Origin: JALSIF01 sp026981635 [NCBI: bacterium]
Lineage (GTDB): Bacteria > 4484-113 > JALSIF01
Length of the DNA: 6,389 nucleotides
Direction: 5' to 3'
NCBI GenBank assembly: GCA_026981635.1
Contig: JALSIF010000017.1
Span: 1-6,389 of the forward strand
The notes beneath the pieces were generated by a model, which worked only from the letters and a program-made list of their open reading frames with translations, did no database searches and was not told the DNA's origin. Position 1 is the stretch's first letter, and every line of letters begins with the position of its first letter. This document shows, one piece after another, positions 562 through 6,389 of the stretch. A program made the position numbers and the translations under genes.

Positions 562-631
562 TCAGGTAGGATAAAGGTGATAACTGTCTGGGTAGTAGGA
601 TTTTAACTCTAATATCGGAGGTAAAACACAG

Positions 632-989: not shown

Positions 990-1014
990 GGGGAGGGCGG
1001 GTTAGAATCTCCCC
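990..1014 (+). other. Hairpin just before the TPR gene
   Basis: GGGGAG (990-995) is followed by its exact complement CTCCCC (1009-1014), with one more possible G-T pair and a loop of about 11-13 nt. No T-run follows, so it is not a typical intrinsic terminator. The purine-rich GGGGAGGG would otherwise look like an SD, but it is 21 nt from the GTG start, too far to work normally. The presumed -10 box of the TPR gene lies in the loop. A read-through transcript from the upstream gene could fold this hairpin; a transcript starting at the local promoter would lack it. Confidence 0.35.
1003..1008 (+). promoter_or_regulatory. -10 box for a leaderless TPR transcript
   Basis: TAGAAT matches the TANNNT -10 form and lies 10 nt before the GTG at 1019, so transcription would begin at or within a few bases of the start codon. 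No clear -35 box lies at 16-19 nt; TTGAAC at 975-980 is 22 nt away. Confidence comes mainly from the same spacing recurring at four other genes in this window. Confidence 0.45.
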
Positions 1015-1018
1015 ACCG

Positions 1019-1816
1019 GTGGAGCAAATAGACCTTGCCATTGAGCTTGCCAAGCGGGGGGAGTTCTGGCCCGCCATCCACCTTTATGAGGAGGCCTGGC
1101 TGAGGGCCGAGCAGAAGGGGGACGCCAAAACCCAGTTCAACGCCCTAAACGGCCTCTCCAATGTGGCCAACCTGCTCAACTCCCCTGCCATGGCCCGGGC
1201 GTGCCTGCTTAAGGCATGGGCGCTGGCCGAGCTAATCGGCGACCGGCGGATGCTCTCCGCGGTGGCCTACAACCTAGCCGGCCTGGAGTTCAGGCGGCAC
1301 AACTACGAACAGGCCCGGCTGTGGCTGAGGCAGTGCAGGGAGATCGCCGAGGAGCTGGAGGGGGGTGCCAAGGAGCTGGCCTATTCCTACCACGGCATGG
1401 CGGTCCTCCACGAGGAGTTGGGTGAACTGGAGGAGGCGCTGGAGTGCCTCCAGCAGGGACTTGAGGTTACAGAGCAGGTTGGGGACATAGAGCAGAGCTT
1501 TCGCGGTGCCCTCCTATCCACCCAGGGCAGCCTGCTCATCAAACTAGGCCGCTATCGGGAGGCGGTCCCAGTGCTTGCCGAGGCCCTCAACCTGTTGGAG
1601 GAAGCCGAAGTCTATCTCATATCTCCCCTGCTCAATCTGGCCGAAGCCCACTTCAAGCTGGGGGAGGAGGAGGCGGCTAGGCAGTGTTATCAACGGGCAA
1701 GCTCAATCATCAAGCGGCTGAAAGAGGCAGCCGAGCCCGACTTCCTGCTAAGGCTTAGGGAGGTGGGCAGGATGCTCGGCCGAGGTGGGGAGGAAAGCAG
1801 GGAGGGAAGGGCTTAG
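1019..1816 (+). CDS. TPR (tetratricopeptide) repeat protein, 265 residues
   Basis: The whole protein is a chain of paired helices typical of tetratricopeptide repeats, which act as protein-protein docking scaffolds. About six units can be drawn: residues 3-34, 39-74, 80-113, 119-155, 163-194 and 203-234. The typical spacing is visible in segments such as LGELEEALECLQQGLEV (134-150), LGRYREAVPVLAEALNL (176-192) and LGEEEAARQCYQRA (214-227). A short charged tail (251-265) follows. There is no signal peptide, membrane segment or attached catalytic or DNA-binding domain, so it is probably a cytoplasmic adaptor; the partner is unknown. GTG at 1019 is the only standard start between the in-frame stop at 968-970 and the first repeat, and removing it would cut the first helix. 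It lacks a usable SD and is probably leaderless. It converges with the PaaA-like gene, with 12 nt between stop codons. Confidence 0.85.
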   Translation: MEQIDLAIELAKRGEFWPAIHLYEEAWLRAEQKGDAKTQFNALNGLSNVANLLNSPAMARACLLKAWALAELIGDRRMLSAVAYNLAGLEFRRHNYEQARLWLRQCREIAEELEGGAKELAYSYHGMAVLHEELGELEEALECLQQGLEVTEQVGDIEQSFRGALLSTQGSLLIKLGRYREAVPVLAEALNLLEEAEVYLISPLLNLAEAHFKLGEEEAARQCYQRASSIIKRLKEAAEPDFLLRLREVGRMLGRGGEESREGRA

Positions 1817-1828
1817 CCCACTCCCGCT

Positions 1829-2788
1829 TCAGGCGGCTCTGCGGCGGGCAAAGCGCTCCAGCGCCTCGCGAATCCAGCGGCCCTCGGCGTAGTGGAGGCG
1901 GCGCAGGGCAAGGCGCTCCTTGGTCATCGGGCCATCGCCGCCTATCACCCTAAAAAGCTCATCCCAGTCAGGCTCGGTATAGACCCACCGCTTCTTCTCC
2001 TCGTCGTAGCGCAGGTTGGGGTCGGGGATGGTGAGGCCCAGCTCGCGTATCTTGGGCACATACTGGCTGAGGAACTTCTGCCGGTTCTGGTCGTTGGTGT
2101 AGAGCTTGAGCTTCCAGCGGTACATTTCGGGATGCTTGCCCAGCTTGTCGGCCGGACCGAAGAACTGCATGATGGGGCCCCACCAGCGGTTGAGGGCATC
2201 CTGGACCATCTCCTTCTGGCGCTTGGTGCCACTCATCAGGGTGAGGATGATGTCGTAGCCCTGCATCAGGTGGAAGGTCTCCTCGTAGCAGATGCGGGCC
2301 AGGGCCCGAGAGTAGGGGCCGTAGGAGGTGGCCCTGAGGCGCGACTGCATCACCATGGCGGCACCGTCAATCAGCCAGCCGATGATCCCCACGTCGGCCC
2401 AGGTCTCGGCCGGATAGTTGAACACGTTCTGGAAGCGTCCCTTACCGTTCAAGAGCTCCTCAATCATCTTCTCGCGGGGCTTGCCCAGGGTCTCTGCCAC
2501 CATGTAGAGGAGCTGGCCGTGGCCCACTTCGTCCTGGACCTTGGCGATGAGGGCAAGTTTGCGCTTCATGCTGGGGGCATAGGGGATCCATTCCCCCTCG
2601 GGGAGGGCCCCCATGATCTCGCTGTTGGCGTGGTTCTGGAGAAAGCGGATCAGGGTCTTGCGGTAAAGCTCGGGCATCCAGTCGCCCGGTTCAATTTTTT
2701 CACCCCGCGCGATGCGCTCCTCAAACTCGGCCAGCTTGTCGGGGTCCTCCTTGGCCAGCATCGCCTCAATCTTTGCCCGGTCCGCCAT
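1829..2788 (-). CDS. paaA: PaaA-like diiron oxygenase (phenylacetyl-CoA epoxidase subunit A homolog), solitary
   Basis: PaaA is the catalytic subunit of the PaaABCE complex, which adds one oxygen atom from O2 to the ring of phenylacetyl-CoA. The 319-residue protein matches E. coli PaaA (about 309) almost end to end, with conserved blocks [14 protein letters not shown] (36-49), KVQDEVGHG (83-91), SWAD-like [16 protein letters not shown] (129-144), SYGPYSRA (155-162) and [11 protein letters not shown] (167-177). All six expected iron ligands are present: Glu57, Glu87, His90, Asp141, Glu170 and His173, matching E. coli E42, E72, H75, D126, E155 and H158. About 15 extra residues precede the homologous core. 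A strong SD, AGGAGGT, lies 7 nt before the ATG. PaaA normally needs the structural subunit PaaC, and the reductase PaaE for electrons; neither is adjacent. The neighbour upstream is a metal-dependent repressor. Family assignment is firm, but the substrate is uncertain: it may act with distant paa genes or be a divergent orphan oxygenase. Confidence 0.9.
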
Positions 2789-2795
2789 CCTCGCT

Positions 2796-2834
2796 ACCTC
2801 CTACAAAAAAGTATATACGCTGACAAACCTTTTT
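2796..2834 (-). promoter_or_regulatory. Promoter, dyad and SD before the PaaA-like gene
   Basis: On the minus strand a -10 box TATACT lies at 2815-2810, inside an 8-bp palindrome GTATATAC (2811-2818). Transcription would begin near 2803, giving a short leader that opens with the SD AGGAGGT (2802-2796). The -10 is flanked by AAAAAG (2806-2811) and CTTTTT (2829-2834), perfect 6-bp inverted arms, and a smaller pair ACAAA/TTTGT lies at 2823-2827/2832-2836. No good -35 is visible. The AT-rich dyad over the -10 could be an operator, perhaps for the neighbouring metal regulator; that is inference. Confidence 0.45.
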
Positions 2835-2847
2835 GTTCCCTGGCGGC

Positions 2848-3531
2848 TCAATCCTGCGGCTCTTCCTCCACCACCACCATCTCAGTCATGGAGTGGCTCA
2901 GTCGGTAGGACGTTCCGGCGATCTCCACCTCAATGGCGTAGTCGGCTCCCTGGGGAGCGTGGCTAAGCACCCTCATCACCACGCCAGGGGTTACCCCCAT
3001 CTCCCCCAACCTTGTGAGCACCTCCCGGCTGTCGTCCCACACAGTCACCACTCTCACCCGCCGGCCCGGCATAGCCTGCTCCAGGGGGATACCCCTGAGG
3101 GGGGGAAGCCTACCCTCCCGGTCGGGGATGGGGGCGCCGTGGGGGTCAAACTTGGGGTGGCCCAGAAACGAATCCAGCCGGTCAACGAAACGGTCGCTCA
3201 CATAATGTTCCAGGGCGTGGGCTTCGTCGTGGACCTCCTCCCAAGAGTAGCCCAGCTTCTCCACCAAAAAGGTCTCCAGCAGACGGTGGCGCCGCACCAG
3301 GCGAATGGCTTCCCTCTCTCCGCGGGTAGTAAGCCGGGGAGCCTGGTAGGGGGAGTAGGTGATCAGCCCCGCCTCGGAGAGGCGCTGGAAGGACTCGCTG
3401 ACGCTTGCCTTGCTCACTCCCAGCCGCTCGGCGACGGCGGTGTTGGTGGGGGGTATGCCGCGCCGCTCCAAAAGCCAGAGCAGCTTTAGGCAGTCCTCCA
3501 GACCTACCAGGGGGCGGCGCGGAGAGAGCAT
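2848..3531 (-). CDS. DtxR/MntR-family metal-dependent transcriptional repressor with FeoA-like C-terminal domain
   Basis: The 227-residue protein has the DtxR layout: a winged helix-turn-helix (about 8-75, recognition part AERLGVSKASVSESFQRL), a metal-binding dimerisation domain (about 76-140, with VRRHRLLETFLVEKLGY and HDEAHALEHYVSD, then GHPKFDPHGAPIP) and an SH3-like FeoA domain (about 155-224). Such proteins bind Fe2+ or Mn2+ and then repress uptake or storage genes. Ligand positions by alignment from memory: His82, Glu86 and His101 match DtxR H79, E83 and H98; Glu108 and His109 match E105 and H106; Asp13 sits where DtxR has Met10 and MntR Asp8; His105 sits where DtxR has Cys102 and MntR Glu99. 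The second metal site is therefore neither canonical type, so iron versus manganese cannot be called. The start lies 9 nt after TATAAT with no SD, suggesting a leaderless mRNA. It lies between the DUF4010 gene and the PaaA-like gene, same strand. Confidence 0.9.
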   Translation of the reverse strand: MLSPRRPLVGLEDCLKLLWLLERRGIPPTNTAVAERLGVSKASVSESFQRLSEAGLITYSPYQAPRLTTRGEREAIRLVRRHRLLETFLVEKLGYSWEEVHDEAHALEHYVSDRFVDRLDSFLGHPKFDPHGAPIPDREGRLPPLRGIPLEQAMPGRRVRVVTVWDDSREVLTRLGEMGVTPGVVMRVLSHAPQGADYAIEVEIAGTSYRLSHSMTEMVVVEEEPQD

Positions 3532-3540
3532 CCTGGGGAG

Positions 3541-3546
3541 ATTATA
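3541..3546 (-). promoter_or_regulatory. -10 box for a leaderless dtxR-like transcript
   Basis: A perfect TATAAT on the minus strand (3546-3541) is followed by exactly 9 nt and then the ATG at 3531. A normal -10 to +1 distance puts the first transcribed base within about three bases of the ATG. The purine run needed for an SD is absent; the 9 nt are C-rich. A GGTCAG lies 18 nt upstream, in the -35 position, within a palindrome. Confidence 0.6.
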
Positions 3547-3564
3547 GAAGGAACCGGCCCCACC

Positions 3565-3576
3565 CTGACCGGTCAG
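3565..3576. promoter_or_regulatory. Perfect 12-bp palindrome, candidate operator upstream of the dtxR-like gene
   Basis: CTGACCGGTCAG is fully self-complementary. It covers the -35 region of the dtxR-like promoter and overlaps the TGA stop of the DUF4010 gene (3575-3573). Its position suits repression or autoregulation. It does not resemble the long A/T-rich DtxR or MntR operators that I know, so the binding protein is open. Confidence 0.4.
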
Positions 3577-4841
3577 AGCAGGGCTCTAAAGAGCAGGGCA
3601 GTGGCGACGGTGGCCAGGGCGAGCAGGCCAAAACCTATCCCCACCAGTCGGGTGAGGCTGGAGCGGTTGAAGTAGAACACCACGGCAAATTTGAAGACCA
3701 GGTTCACCAGGGTGGCCCAGACCACCAGCTCGGCGGCAAGCTGGGCCAGGATCTCCCCCTTGCCGGCAAGCTCGGAGAGGGAGAGGGTGATGGCGTCAAG
3801 GTCGGTAAGGCTGGAGAGCACGGTGGCGAAAGCCACTCCTGCCCCGCTCATGTAGTGCTGCGCGGCGGCCACCAGGATGAGCACCAGGGCAAAGATCACC
3901 CCAAACTGGAGGGCGGTGCCCAGGGCGGTGGGGTTGTGGACCGGCGGCAGGGTGAAGCTGTCGTTCAGCTTCTCTCGCGCTCTAAGCCACAGCACCCAGG
4001 AGATGAGCAGACCCACCAGCAAGAGGATGGTGAGGGGAAGGCTGGCCAGTCTGGCCACCGACCGGTTTACCACCCAGAGCAGGACCAGCAGGCGGAAGTA
4101 GAGGCTGGTGTTGGCAATAAGTATGGCGGCCGCCATGGGCTCGGGGGCACTCTTCCATTCGGTCTGCTGGCGGGCCAAACTGATGGAGGTGGCGGTGGAG
4201 CTGACCAGCCCACCAAGCAGAGCGGAGAGGATCAGCCCCTTCCGGGTGCCGAGAAGCTTAAGGGCCACATAGCCGGCAAGACTTACCGCCACCACCAGGA
4301 CCACCATGAGCCAGATGCGGCGGGGATTGAGCACCTCCCAGGGGCCGTAGCCCTGGTCGGGGAGGATGGGGAGAATGACGAAGGCCACCAGAGCGAACTG
4401 GAGGATGGCCAGGAAGTCGGTGCGGGTGAGGCGGCGGGCAAACTCGTGGAGCTCGGGCTTGAAGTAGAGCAGGGCGGGGATGGCGAAACCGGCCGCCACC
4501 GCCACCTCCAAGGGGCCGTACCAGACCAGGGCTCCCACCAGATAGGCGAGGGCGGCGGCCACCTCGGTGGTGTGACCGCGCTCGTGCTCTCCCTCGGAGG
4601 AGAAGCGGCCGGCAACGAAGTAGGCCACCACCGCAAGCAGGCCCACCACCACCACCCAGCCGCCGGCCCGCTCGGCGATGATGGCGGCAAGCGTCCCCCA
4701 CAGGGTGATCAGGGTGAAGGTGCGCACCCCTCCAGCGTGGGGACCGGTAAACTCGCGCTCAATCCCCAGGATGGCGCCCAGGCCAGCACTGATGGCAATT
4801 AGCACTAGCTGCTGCCAGACCTGGGGAAGAGCCTCATTCAT
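3573..4841 (-). CDS. MgtC/SapB-DUF4010 family integral membrane protein, 422 residues
   Basis: The N-terminal part (about 12-140) is an MgtC/SapB-type domain with the signature GLGAILGIERE (20-30), GGVRTFTLI (37-45) and HTTEVAAALAYLVGALV (90-106). The C-terminal part is DUF4010, with RTDFLAILQFALVAFVILPILP starting at 140, GLVSSTATSISLARQ (211-225) and a related LSSLTDLDAITLSLSE (342-357). I count about a dozen hydrophobic segments, so it lies in the cytoplasmic membrane. MgtC relatives are linked to Mg2+ limitation and ATP synthase control in pathogens; the function of the DUF4010 fusion is not established, and transport of a cation is only a guess. Length is normal for the fusion. The last codons contain a 10-bp direct repeat (3575-3584 and 3590-3599) giving ALLFRALL. 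The ATG has no SD but lies 9 nt after TAAAAT. A dtxR-like gene follows after 41 nt on the same strand, which supports a metal-related role. Confidence 0.9.
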   Translation of the reverse strand: MNEALPQVWQQLVLIAISAGLGAILGIEREFTGPHAGGVRTFTLITLWGTLAAIIAERAGGWVVVVGLLAVVAYFVAGRFSSEGEHERGHTTEVAAALAYLVGALVWYGPLEVAVAAGFAIPALLYFKPELHEFARRLTRTDFLAILQFALVAFVILPILPDQGYGPWEVLNPRRIWLMVVLVVAVSLAGYVALKLLGTRKGLILSALLGGLVSSTATSISLARQQTEWKSAPEPMAAAILIANTSLYFRLLVLLWVVNRSVARLASLPLTILLLVGLLISWVLWLRAREKLNDSFTLPPVHNPTALGTALQFGVIFALVLILVAAAQHYMSGAGVAFATVLSSLTDLDAITLSLSELAGKGEILAQLAAELVVWATLVNLVFKFAVVFYFNRSSLTRLVGIGFGLLALATVATALLFRALL

Positions 4842-4844
4842 CGC

Positions 4845-4906
4845 AAAAGGATTTTAAGCTGCCGGGAAAGATTTTCAGCCTCGGCGGGGAAAAGATTTCA
4901 CCTGCC
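4845..4906. repeat. Three imperfect direct repeats in the divergent promoter region
   Basis: Three 19-nt units of similar sequence lie in a row: AAAAGGATTTTAAGCTGCC (4845-4863), GGGAAAGATTTTCAGCCTC (4864-4882) and GGAAAAGATTTCACCTGCC (4888-4906). The common core is about GGAAAAGATTTTCA followed by a C-rich end. The GATTT cores are 20 and 24 nt apart, roughly two helical turns, so a dimer series could bind one face of the DNA. Unit one overlaps the DUF4010 -10 box and unit three ends 2 nt before the -10 of the 73-residue gene, so a binding protein could control both genes. No known operator is recognised. Confidence 0.5.
4851..4878 (-). promoter_or_regulatory. Promoter for a leaderless DUF4010 transcript
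   Basis: The -10 TAAAAT (4856-4851, minus strand) lies 9 nt before the ATG at 4841. A -35-like CTGAAA at 4878-4873 is 16 nt upstream. No SD precedes the start, so the message probably begins at or next to the AUG. The -10 lies inside the first of three repeats in this divergent region. Confidence 0.5.
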
Positions 4907-4908
4907 GA

Positions 4909-4914
4909 TATAAT
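4909..4914 (+). promoter_or_regulatory. -10 box for a leaderless transcript of the 73-residue gene
   Basis: A perfect TATAAT is followed by exactly 9 nt and then the ATG at 4924. No SD fits in that space. The -35 position (about 4886-4891) reads GGGGAA, a poor match, so an activator binding the adjacent repeats may be needed; that last point is inference. Confidence 0.6.
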
Positions 4915-4923
4915 TTCTGGGCC

Positions 4924-5145
4924 ATGGACAAAGCGAGCAAGGGGCAGGTGCTCACCGAGTTGGTTGAACAGGCCAACTCCATGGTCCAAACGCTTCCTCC
5001 CGAGGCTCGTCAGAGGGCTTTCCAGATCGTCCTTGACATGCTTATCCGCCACAAGTTCGGCATCAAGCCTCCCAAGAGCTGGCCGGAGATAGAAGGGATA
5101 GAGTTTGACCCCCAGGGGGTGGCCCGGCTGGCCACCTCAGGCTAG
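4924..5145 (+). CDS. Small hypothetical protein, 73 residues
   Basis: I do not recognise this protein. It is soluble in character. Residues 4-44 look like two amphipathic helices separated by a Pro-Pro turn (GQVLTELVEQANSMVQTL, then PEARQRAFQIVLDMLIRHKFG). The tail (45-73) is less regular, with KPPKSW, EIEGIEFDPQG and a final small-residue stretch. There are no cysteines, no signal peptide and no recognisable DNA-binding motif. Support for it being real: a perfect TATAAT exactly 9 nt before the ATG, normal GC-rich codon use like its neighbours, and a tight convergent fit with the acetyltransferase gene (10 nt between stops). It is divergent from the DUF4010 gene and shares a repeat-bearing control region of 82 nt with it. 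Confidence 0.7.
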   Translation: MDKASKGQVLTELVEQANSMVQTLPPEARQRAFQIVLDMLIRHKFGIKPPKSWPEIEGIEFDPQGVARLATSG

Positions 5146-5155
5146 TCTTCCAGCC
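5126..5155. terminator. Weak inverted repeat at the convergent gene ends
   Basis: GGCTGG (5126-5131) and CCAGCC (5150-5155) are perfect 6-bp arms around an 18-nt loop, spanning the stop of the 73-residue gene and ending next to the stop of the acetyltransferase gene. There is no T-run on either side, so this would be a poor intrinsic terminator. It is listed because it is the only candidate between the two converging genes. Confidence 0.2.
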
Positions 5156-6103
5156 CTAGTAGTCGTATCCGTAGTCCTCCTCCTCCAGCTCGGGGCGGCT
5201 GGTGGGAAAGAGCTTTATCCACAGGTTCATGTTGATGAAGTTGCCCTCGGGGTCGCGGTAGTCGTTGACTAGGGTGCCGGTGAAGCGGTATTCACGGTTA
5301 AACAGGGCCTTGTTGCTTCCCGGGTCGCGGGCGGGGATGAAGCCATAGACGCTGTTTAGTTCCAGCTCCCGGCAGATCCCCTCAAGGAGCCCGATCAGGG
5401 CCTGGGCCAGTCCACGGCCACGGTAGTCGGGGAGGGTGGCGCCGTGGGTCATCTGGCCAGTCTGGTGATCAAAGTCAATCTGCACCGCCAGCACGCTTAC
5501 CGGCCGCTCGCCCTCAAAGCCGATGGCGAAGGGGGTTGAGTTGGAGGCAAGCAGGCGGGAGATGTAGCCCTCCTCCAGCTCGGGGACCGGTGAATCCTGG
5601 TAGACCGCCCGGTAGATCTCCATTATCGCCTCAAGGTCGCCCGGCCCGGCACGCCGCATGGTAAAACCACCAGGGAGCTCCGCCGGACGGGGCCGTCCCT
5701 GGTAGAAGCGGCGAAGCATGGCCTGCTCCTTGCGCAAGGTGGGAGAGCTCTCCCGCTCGGGGTCTAGGAAGAGGGAGAGCAGGTCGGCATCCTCGCGCAG
5801 GTAGTAGCGAGGGAAGTTGGCCTCCTGGCGGAAGCCCTGGGCGAGGAGCTTGCTGGTCAGGTGGTCGGGGCACACCACCAGCAGCTTGGAAAGCTCCCGC
5901 TCTTCGGCCAGCTCACGCAGGGGGGAAATATCCACCTGACTGCTGGCAGGTTCTAGGTGGTCCACCAACAGGCGGCGGTGATAGAAGTCCAGTCTCCCCT
6001 GGAAGGTGGTGCCCCTCCTCTCCAGACGGAAGGTCTGGCTGTAGAGCTCGCCCCCTACCCTCAGTTCATCAGGTATGTAATCGCTGTAATCCTTTTCTGG
6101 CAT
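5156..6103 (-). CDS. ablB: AblB-like GNAT acetyltransferase (putative beta-lysine N6-acetyltransferase)
   Basis: AblB acetylates beta-lysine, made from lysine by the aminomutase AblA, to give N6-acetyl-beta-lysine, a compatible solute. The 315-residue protein fits that family from memory: an N-terminal domain (about 20-115, with RLDFYHRRLLVDHL and ELSKLLVVCPDHLTSKLLAQGF) and a C-terminal GNAT fold (about 146-298). The acetyl-CoA loop is in LPDYRGRGLAQALIGLLE (224-241), preceded by the strand AVQIDFDHQTGQMTHGAT (206-223). The end carries FTGTLVNDYRDPEG and FINMNLWIKL (289-298), very close to the AblB C-terminus. A short acidic Glu/Tyr tail (304-315) is extra. No ablA is in the window; the neighbours are nuoA (divergent) and a small unknown (convergent). 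ATG 6103 is the only standard start after an upstream in-frame stop at 6190-6188. No SD sits at normal distance. A related GNAT with another amine substrate cannot be excluded. Confidence 0.75.
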   Translation of the reverse strand: MPEKDYSDYIPDELRVGGELYSQTFRLERRGTTFQGRLDFYHRRLLVDHLEPASSQVDISPLRELAEERELSKLLVVCPDHLTSKLLAQGFRQEANFPRYYLREDADLLSLFLDPERESSPTLRKEQAMLRRFYQGRPRPAELPGGFTMRRAGPGDLEAIMEIYRAVYQDSPVPELEEGYISRLLASNSTPFAIGFEGERPVSVLAVQIDFDHQTGQMTHGATLPDYRGRGLAQALIGLLEGICRELELNSVYGFIPARDPGSNKALFNREYRFTGTLVNDYRDPEGNFINMNLWIKLFPTSRPELEEEDYGYDY

Positions 6104-6127
6104 GGCTGATGTGGGAAAAAAGGCCGT

Positions 6128-6166
6128 ACCTCCTGTCCTGAGTCCTCCCTGGCTAAAAATAGCATA
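6128..6166 (-). promoter_or_regulatory. Possible promoter and distant SD-like site upstream of the ablB-like gene
   Basis: On the minus strand two overlapping AT-rich boxes, TATGCT (6166-6161) and TATTTT (6161-6156), could serve as -10, giving a leader of about 45-50 nt. A perfect AGGAGGT follows at 6134-6128, but it is 24 nt from the only start codon, ATG 6103, with a run of six T between them. No ATG, GTG or TTG lies 5-10 nt after this SD in any frame. Confidence 0.3.
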
Positions 6167-6185
6167 ACCCCACCGGCCCAGGTTG

Positions 6186-6234
6186 GGTCAGCCCTTTGGG
6201 GATACGGGACTAAAATGGTCAGCCGGTGTATCCC
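6186..6234. repeat. Direct and inverted repeats around the nuoA start
   Basis: GGTCAGCC occurs at 6186-6193 and again at 6217-6224, 31 bp apart or about three helical turns, bracketing the -10 box. GGGATAC (6199-6205) and GTATCCC (6228-6234) form perfect 7-bp inverted arms around 22 nt, and the second arm overlaps the GTG start. They could be regulator sites. In a read-through RNA the inverted arms would form a hairpin over the start. Confidence 0.4.
6211..6216 (+). promoter_or_regulatory. -10 box for a leaderless nuoA transcript
   Basis: TAAAAT lies exactly 9 nt before the GTG at 6226, the same layout as at the DUF4010, dtxR-like and 73-residue genes. No SD lies in the 9 nt. A GGTCAG at 6186-6191 is 19 nt upstream, a weak -35 match that also occurs at the dtxR-like promoter. 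Confidence 0.5.
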
Positions 6235-6389
6235 GACTACAACATCGCGGGCCTGTTTCTCACCGCCGGCATAGTCACCCTGATGGCGGTATTTCTTCTC
6301 TGGTGGCTGGTCCGCGACCGGGGAAAGGGGCACATCCTGGAGCGCTCCACCTACGAGTCGGGGGAGCCGCCGGCGGGGGAGGCCTGGCG
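6226..6389 (+). CDS. nuoA: NADH-quinone oxidoreductase subunit A (NuoA), N-terminal part
   Basis: NuoA is a small membrane subunit of complex I, the proton-pumping NADH:quinone oxidoreductase. The 54 visible residues have a short N-terminus (MYPDYN), one membrane segment (about 7-29, ending FLLWWLV) and a charged cytosolic loop with the family motif YESGEPPAGEAW (43-54). The last matches the YE(S/C)Gxxpx-G-A pattern that precedes the conserved R/F-N-V-R-Y-Y region in NuoA, which would lie beyond the edge. E. coli NuoA has FESGIDSVGSAR at this point. The start is GTG; the motif begins at the usual distance after the first helix, so the length is right. The gene is open to the window end, and nuoB and other nuo genes are expected to follow. 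It is divergent from the ablB-like gene, 122 nt apart. It has no SD and is probably leaderless. Confidence 0.8.
   Translation, partial: MYPDYNIAGLFLTAGIVTLMAVFLLWWLVRDRGKGHILERSTYESGEPPAGEAW

Follow-up and report, generated by a model that had tools for sequence, protein, structure and literature searches.

Genes and Start-Adjacent Boxes in the Window

The window analyzed here is contig JALSIF010000017.1 (6,389 nucleotides), one of the 317 contigs that make up the draft genome of the bacterium JALSIF01 sp026981635 (assembly GCA_026981635.1; 1.745 Mb, 85% complete). Five of its nine gene starts are closely preceded by a hexamer of the form TANNNT, which we read as a -10 promoter element placed against the start codon. 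The five genes code for a TPR-repeat protein, a DtxR/MntR-type repressor, an MgtC/DUF4010 membrane protein, a 73-residue orphan and a NuoA-like protein, and they lie on both strands. Writing d, or Nd, for the number of bases that separate the box from the start codon, four of the boxes are read from the sequence at N9 and one at N10, and none of the five genes has a usable Shine-Dalgarno (SD) site within reach. Coordinates are collected in Table 1.

A first-pass annotation of the window had described these five layouts and the lack of usable SD sites, and had credited three other genes with good ones. All five boxes lie exactly where it placed them, on both strands; no SD site is in reach of any of them; and the three SD-led genes are those with starts at 494 (minus), 632 (plus) and 2788 (minus), at SD spacings of 7–9 bases. 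Judged solely by how often the pattern occurs, the window offers weak evidence, with four matches to TANNNT-N9-RTG against 1.50 expected, a number that 10 of 200 shuffles reach. All four matches fall exactly on gene starts. Boxes at N9 or N10 are denser in the window (5 of 9 starts) than in the genome (64 matches at d = 9–10 on 684 starts), the window having been chosen for them.

Table 1. Promoter boxes, predicted transcription starts, SD sites and genes of the window. Coordinates on the minus strand are given in reading direction for boxes and SD sites.
Feature	Position	Strand	Details and basis
-10 box TAGAAT, TPR gene	1003-1008	+	N10 before GTG 1019; sequence; start agreed by caller
Predicted transcription start, TPR gene	A1015	+	4-base leader; offset taken from the genome-wide signature
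TPR-repeat protein	1019-1816	+	265 aa, GTG start; Pfam TPR_12, 4e-35
-10 box TATAAT, dtxR-like gene	3546-3541	-	N9 before ATG 3531; sequence; start agreed by caller
Predicted transcription start, dtxR-like gene	A3534	-	leader AGG; offset as above
DtxR/MntR-type metal-dependent repressor with FeoA domain	2848-3531	-	227 aa; Pfam; NCBIfam MntR 2.6e-52, below its cut-off
-10 box TAAAAT, DUF4010 gene	4856-4851	-	N9 before ATG 4841; sequence; start agreed by caller
Predicted transcription start, DUF4010 gene	G4844	-	leader GCG; offset as above
MgtC/DUF4010 membrane protein	3573-4841	-	422 aa; Pfam
-10 box TATAAT, 73-aa gene	4909-4914	+	N9 before ATG 4924; sequence
Predicted transcription start, 73-aa gene	G4921	+	leader GCC; offset as above
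73-aa orphan gene, divergent from DUF4010 gene	4924-5145	+	gene-like codon use; below caller's score limit
-10 box TAAAAT, nuoA	6211-6216	+	N9 before GTG 6226; sequence
Predicted transcription start, nuoA	near 6222-6223	+	offset as above
nuoA-like gene, cut by window end	6226-6389	+	matches a PF00507 protein of a class mate, 38% over 50 aa
SD GGAGGT, lipoprotein-like gene (ATG 494)	507-502	-	sequence; lipoprotein label from N-terminus by eye only
SD GGAGGT, 112-aa gene (ATG 632)	617-622	+	sequence
SD AGGAGGT, paaA (ATG 2788)	2802-2796	-	sequence
paaA	1829-2788	-	NCBIfam TIGR02156, 1.8e-131, 437 bits
GNAT protein (ATG 6103)	5156-6103	-	resembles beta-lysine acetyltransferase AblB, 146 bits, below 205 cut-off

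Distribution of the Box Across the Genome

Base-by-base reading covered 825 kb of the host genome (101 contigs, 47%). A gene caller built on a codon model, and taking no account of upstream sequence, returned 750 genes with 684 usable starts; box counts at these starts are matches, not genes, and the background is the mean over d = 20–49 (7.63 matches per position, largest single position 13). For d = 5 to 12, TANNNT matches number 6, 35, 34, 23, 48, 16, 12, and 7. A box stands at d = 6–10 in 152 of the 684 starts, where about 38 matches are expected from background, and there is no three-base periodicity past N9, d = 12 being at background (7 vs. 7.63). A stronger form of the box, defined as TANNAT or TANANT, precedes called starts at d = 9 with a frequency of 57.0 per 1000; the remaining in-frame starts of these open reading frames have it at 1.0 per 1000, and other RTGs at 1.1 per 1000. 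This contrast is independent of the choice of start, and the caller is blind to boxes.

For comparison within the class we used nine genomes (G001–G009), the host's relatives in the set being no nearer than class. The boxes might be chance A+T-rich hexamers, or the genes might be read from longer, leadered transcripts begun further upstream, as the mild enrichment of the pattern within the window (10 of 200 shuffles) would allow; but we give this almost no credence in view of the fifty-fold enrichment at called starts over other RTGs, the near-exclusion of SD sites described below, and an N6 signal shared by every one of the nine class mates (230 matches vs. 20 for the control in G001, for example).

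A -35 element is at most weak: TTGN occupies its place (spacer 15–19) at only 9 of 125 boxes, or 1.8 per position vs. about 0.8 for the remaining spacers in the count. As regards a possible extended -10 element, the base two positions before the box is G at a frequency of 0.49–0.55 in the host genome and 0.67–0.72 in G001 and G004 (N6–8 boxes), and T stands three positions before it at 0.24–0.25 in the host genome and 0.50 in G004.

Two Classes of Translation Start

The first-pass annotation had proposed a genome-wide count of TANNNT, split by the presence of an SD site. That count peaks at d = 6–9, and an SD site occurs at 5 of 152 boxed starts vs. 189 of 532 unboxed ones (p = 1e-18); at starts whose box sits farther off, at d = 20–40, it is found in 40 of 124. 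Promoters that abut the start codon of genes lacking an SD site are thus well supported across the genome.

Gene context separates the two kinds of start as well. Boxes at d = 9–10 are found at 30 of 190 starts with a divergent neighbor vs. 12 of 228 tightly packed on the same strand (p = 5e-4), and over d = 6–10 the figures are 63 of 190 vs. 41 of 228. The trend for SD sites is the opposite (35 of 190 divergent, 85 of 228 tightly packed). The near-exclusion of SD sites and the preference for divergent neighbors therefore support both a set of promoter-abutting, SD-less genes and the earlier suggestion of two translation classes in one genome, which we consider well founded.

No functional theme emerged when 20 of the 39 N9 genes outside the window and 10 of 28 N6 genes, all with the stronger box, were searched against Pfam; each sample is a mixture of housekeeping genes, the N9 set including matches to the families of ruvB, mnmG, aroC, thiG, purE, and lpxC. 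The five window genes likewise have no function in common. A hint drawn from the presence of metal regulation and complex I in the boxed set is accordingly not supported, and the nuoA layout is not conserved in the class mates. Among 18 PF00507 loci in these nine genomes, one is cut before its start, and none of the other 17 has a box 6–10 bases before the start judged plausible; two of the 17 carry TANNNT 8 bases before an in-frame ATG further downstream.

A Second Spacing Mode at N9

Counts of TANAAT-Nd-RTG over the whole host genome, made with no gene calling and with the reversed pattern as control, are 49, 42, 28, 51, and 27 for d = 6 to 10, against control counts of 2, 7, 8, 6, and 8. 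The spacing thus has two modes, with d = 9 exceeding its neighbors (51 vs. 28 and 27; Poisson p = 4e-5). The nine class mates show no such excess (p 0.19–0.98). They peak at N6, or equally at N6 and N7 (97 and 101 in G006), and are lower beyond, as in G001 (230, 63, 56, 51, 48). Divided by the average of its two neighbors, d8 and d10, the d9 count comes to 1.85 in the host genome and 0.79–1.14 in the class mates, and the contrast of d9 with d8 plus d10 between the host and the nine pooled gives an odds ratio of 2.0 (p = 8e-4).

The peak at N9 might instead be a fluctuation on a single, broad-tailed distribution of spacings. The two halves of a split of the contigs differ, with gene-based d8/d9/d10 counts of 11, 31, 8 in one and 12, 17, 8 in the other, and the finding was selected from a window rich in N9. 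With the window removed, the gene-based counts are still 23, 46, and 15, and the whole-genome excess, its lack in every class mate and the odds ratio all speak for a real mode, so that we consider a fluctuation improbable, if the least improbable of the alternatives treated here.

Gene-based counts from the same script are also available for outgroups, namely 450 kb of plasmids from four Deinococcus species (304 starts) and Thermus (94 starts); a Streptomyces plasmid sample, with 31 starts, is too small to read any spacing mode. Over d = 6 to 10, the Deinococcus plasmids give 22, 9, 5, 3, and 1 (background 1.67), with a mode at N6 and none at N9, and Thermus gives 7, 3, 0, 0, and 3 (background 0.40), with a few at N10. 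N9/N10 had been taken for the leaderless spacing known from Deinococcus; this does not agree with the N6 mode of the plasmids or with the distance of about 6–7 bp reported for D. radiodurans (PMC12340547). At d = 6–8, box matches number 92 on 684 starts in the host genome, 40 on 260 in G001, 21 on 181 in G004, and 36 on 304 in the Deinococcus plasmids.

In all nine class mates, TANAAT-N6-RTG is abundant (81–253 matches each vs. 11–39 for the reversed control), and the whole class looks rich in leaderless genes.

The choice of start codon also follows spacing in the host genome, with 23 GTG and 12 ATG at N6 and 14 GTG and 33 ATG at N9 (p = 0.0017). In G001, N6 genes begin with GTG (14), ATG (9), or TTG (2), and N7–N12 genes with ATG (32) or TTG (1) and never with GTG. 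G004 deviates from this pattern, its GTG/ATG counts being 7/2 at N6, 7/4 at N7, and 4/1 at N9.

Position of the Transcription Start

Were transcription to begin at a fixed place relative to the start codon, the bases ahead of that codon would be expected to agree at all spacings, but they differ: a pyrimidine, as expected at a transcription start, occupies position -1 in 24 of 27 N6 genes, vs. 11 of 28 at N7 and 18 of 39 at N9. The change from pyrimidine to purine is therefore tied to the box and not to the start codon, and it lies seven bases past the box at N6, N7, N9, and N10. A pyrimidine-purine (YR) step at box+6/7, that is, six and seven bases past the box, is present in 26 of 53 N9–N10 genes, whereas each of the seven remaining offsets has it in 3–13 of 53, and when the 95 genes with d = 7–10 are pooled, 41 YR steps stand at this place vs. 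10 of the reverse order (RY; p = 1.5e-5). For N9 genes the argument rests on the upstream pyrimidines, because a purine at -3 is just as frequent in genes without a box; at -4 a purine is found in 10 of 39, vs. a frequency of 0.61 in box-free genes, which amounts to an excess of pyrimidines. Box+7 thus bears the statistical signature of a transcription start, and with the step tied to the box, N6 genes would be leaderless, N9 genes would have a three-base leader and N10 genes a four-base leader.

The claim that the five window genes give leaderless mRNAs stands in kind. Taken strictly it does not, with the signature at box+7 and predicted leaders of three to four bases, and the five genes are probably best called near-leaderless. 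If RNA polymerase started on the start codon itself in N9 and N10 genes, at a longer distance from the box, all boxed genes would form one class; and a survey of bacterial genomes (Zheng et al., 2011; PMC3160421) reports that transcription starts 8 to 14 bases away from the A of the box, a range that would accommodate an N9 start codon at its far end, 14. N10 lies beyond that range. Strict leaderlessness corresponds to N6–N7, whereas the window has four genes at N9 and one at N10, and a step at the start codon itself is what N6 genes display but the N9 class does not, its step lying at box+6/7. We therefore consider strictly leaderless N9 and N10 genes unlikely, more so than a fluctuation in the N9 count.

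The assigned N9 start codons look right. Of 20 N9 proteins searched, 18 match Pfam, with the first domain beginning at residues 4–49 in 17 and at residue 240 in one; the domain begins at residue 4 in the PurE-type AIR carboxylase and in LpxC, 6 in MnmG, 10 in chorismate synthase (AroC), 16 in ThiG, and 23 in RuvB. Since N9 is exactly one codon past N6, these starts could have been misassigned, with translation in fact beginning one codon earlier, at the 5' end. Only 1 of 48 N9 genes, however, has any of ATG, GTG, TTG, CTG, ATT, or ATC at -3 (a TTG), an in-frame stop codon interrupts the preceding nine bases in 4 of 48, and the commonest triplets at -3 to -1 (GCC, AGG, CCC, CCG) are common in box-free genes too. 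Misassignment of this kind is very improbable, nearly as much so as chance origin of the boxes.

Other Genes of the Window

The caller chose the same starts as the first-pass annotation for the TPR, dtxR-like and DUF4010 genes. Its score limit missed the 73-aa gene, the gene at 632 and the truncated nuoA, and it placed the start of the lipoprotein-like gene at 335; errors of the same kind also occur elsewhere in the genome. The 73-aa protein has no homologue in the nine class mates and no Pfam or NCBIfam family match, and the NuoA-like fragment has no Pfam or NCBIfam match of its own.

Pfam and NCBIfam scans recognized no further paa genes in the window beside paaA, whose closest relative among the named matches listed comes from an Ardenticatenaceae genome (69% identical). 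The sole GGAGGT upstream of the GNAT gene lies about 24 bases from its ATG. No 16S rRNA gene, from which an anti-SD sequence could be read, was found in the host genome.

Interpretation

We consider it likely, at a probability of roughly 0.75, that the boxes are housekeeping -10 elements abutting start codons, with N6 genes leaderless and N9/N10 genes near-leaderless, having leaders of three or four bases. TANNNT would be the -10 element of the housekeeping sigma factor, mostly with no recognizable -35 element, and RNA polymerase would begin about seven bases past it, so that the mRNA 5' end would fall on the start codon at N6 and three or four bases before it at N9 or N10. Such mRNAs could not carry an SD site, and ribosomes presumably recognize the start codon at or beside the 5' end; other genes of the same genome would use SD sites.

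Several observations weigh against this reading. Box+7 is a statistical signature and not a mapped start; the 14 N8 genes lack the step (at box+6 as at box+7, 5 of 14 have a purine), and the purine at -3 in N9 genes is ordinary (26 of 39 vs. 0.66 in box-free genes). The exclusion of SD sites is in part displacement, because the box occupies the place of the SD site; among starts with control hexamers at d = 6–10, an SD site occurs at 0 of 8 for TNNNAT and 7 of 17 for ATNNNA. Of the 228 genes tightly packed on one strand with their upstream neighbor, 41 have a box, more than a first-gene rule would predict, and the nuoA arrangement is not conserved among class mates. The counts behind the bimodality are modest; the N9 mode is pronounced in one half of the contigs and faint in the other, and the weaker half alone would show no clear second mode. 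The base-by-base data come from only 47% of an 85%-complete genome, with starts called by a home-made program.

More tentatively, this lineage may have a second SD-less mode of initiation in which the start codon is at +4, as common as leaderless initiation at +1, and which would be a derived trait, being unseen in the nine class mates and in the Deinococcus stretches; we hold this to be possible but on the doubtful side. In such a mode the three-base leader might fill the ribosomal E site. If a three-base leader is indeed as common as none, the mycobacterial preference for a 5'-terminal start codon would not be universal, and the genome would point to a lineage whose ribosome reads a start codon placed one codon inside the 5' end. 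This uncultured class would join the leaderless-rich groups, and the box spacing would supply a rule by which start-codon calls in genomes of this kind can be corrected.

Comparison With Known Systems

Promoters abutting the start codon, and two classes of genes in one genome, are of a kind known from Actinobacteria and Deinococcus-Thermus; the equal N9 mode is what differs. Genes with TANNNT near the start ("TA-led") alongside SD-led genes are the subject of a survey of 953 genomes of bacteria (Zheng et al., 2011; PMC3160421), which puts the signal about 12 bp upstream; in high-G+C genomes the motif is a degenerate TAnnnT. The host genome resembles these in its sigma70-type -10 box near the start and in the coexistence of SD-led and TA-led genes, and it displays the features of the TA-led class, with a box enriched genome-wide within about 20 bp of the start, SD sites largely confined to other genes, and a preference for the heads of transcription units. 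It differs in having spacings of N6–7 and N9, where the survey's account of the signal gives about 12 bp and makes no mention of a second mode.

A recent study of D. radiodurans (2025; PMC12340547) describes TANNNT as the -10 region of nearly a third of genes, predominantly about 6–7 bp before the open reading frame and with no pathway bias, and reports that the motif can serve as a promoter whose expression is raised by an added -35 element. The host genome shares the placement of TANNNT against the start as a -10 region and differs from the Deinococcus plasmid stretches, which peak at N6, in its N9 mode.

Likeness to mycobacteria lies in the TANNNT -10 box, the lack of a -35 consensus, and ATG and GTG at the 5' end (Shell et al., 2015, PMC4633059; Cortes et al., 2013, PMC3898074). 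In Mycobacterium tuberculosis, an RTG is reported at +1 in 1098 cases vs. 558 at +2 to +5 together, with N-terminal peptides for 51 of 1098 vs. 4 of 558 (Shell et al., 2015; PMC4633059). Start codons that lie on the 5' end or very close to it are allowed for in a review (PMC9031893), and the open-access literature searched, as far as its accessible text goes, yielded no report of a three-base-leader mode or of an equal second mode at N9. Whereas +1 predominates in mycobacteria, the start codon at +4 that we infer for the host genome would be as common as that at +1.

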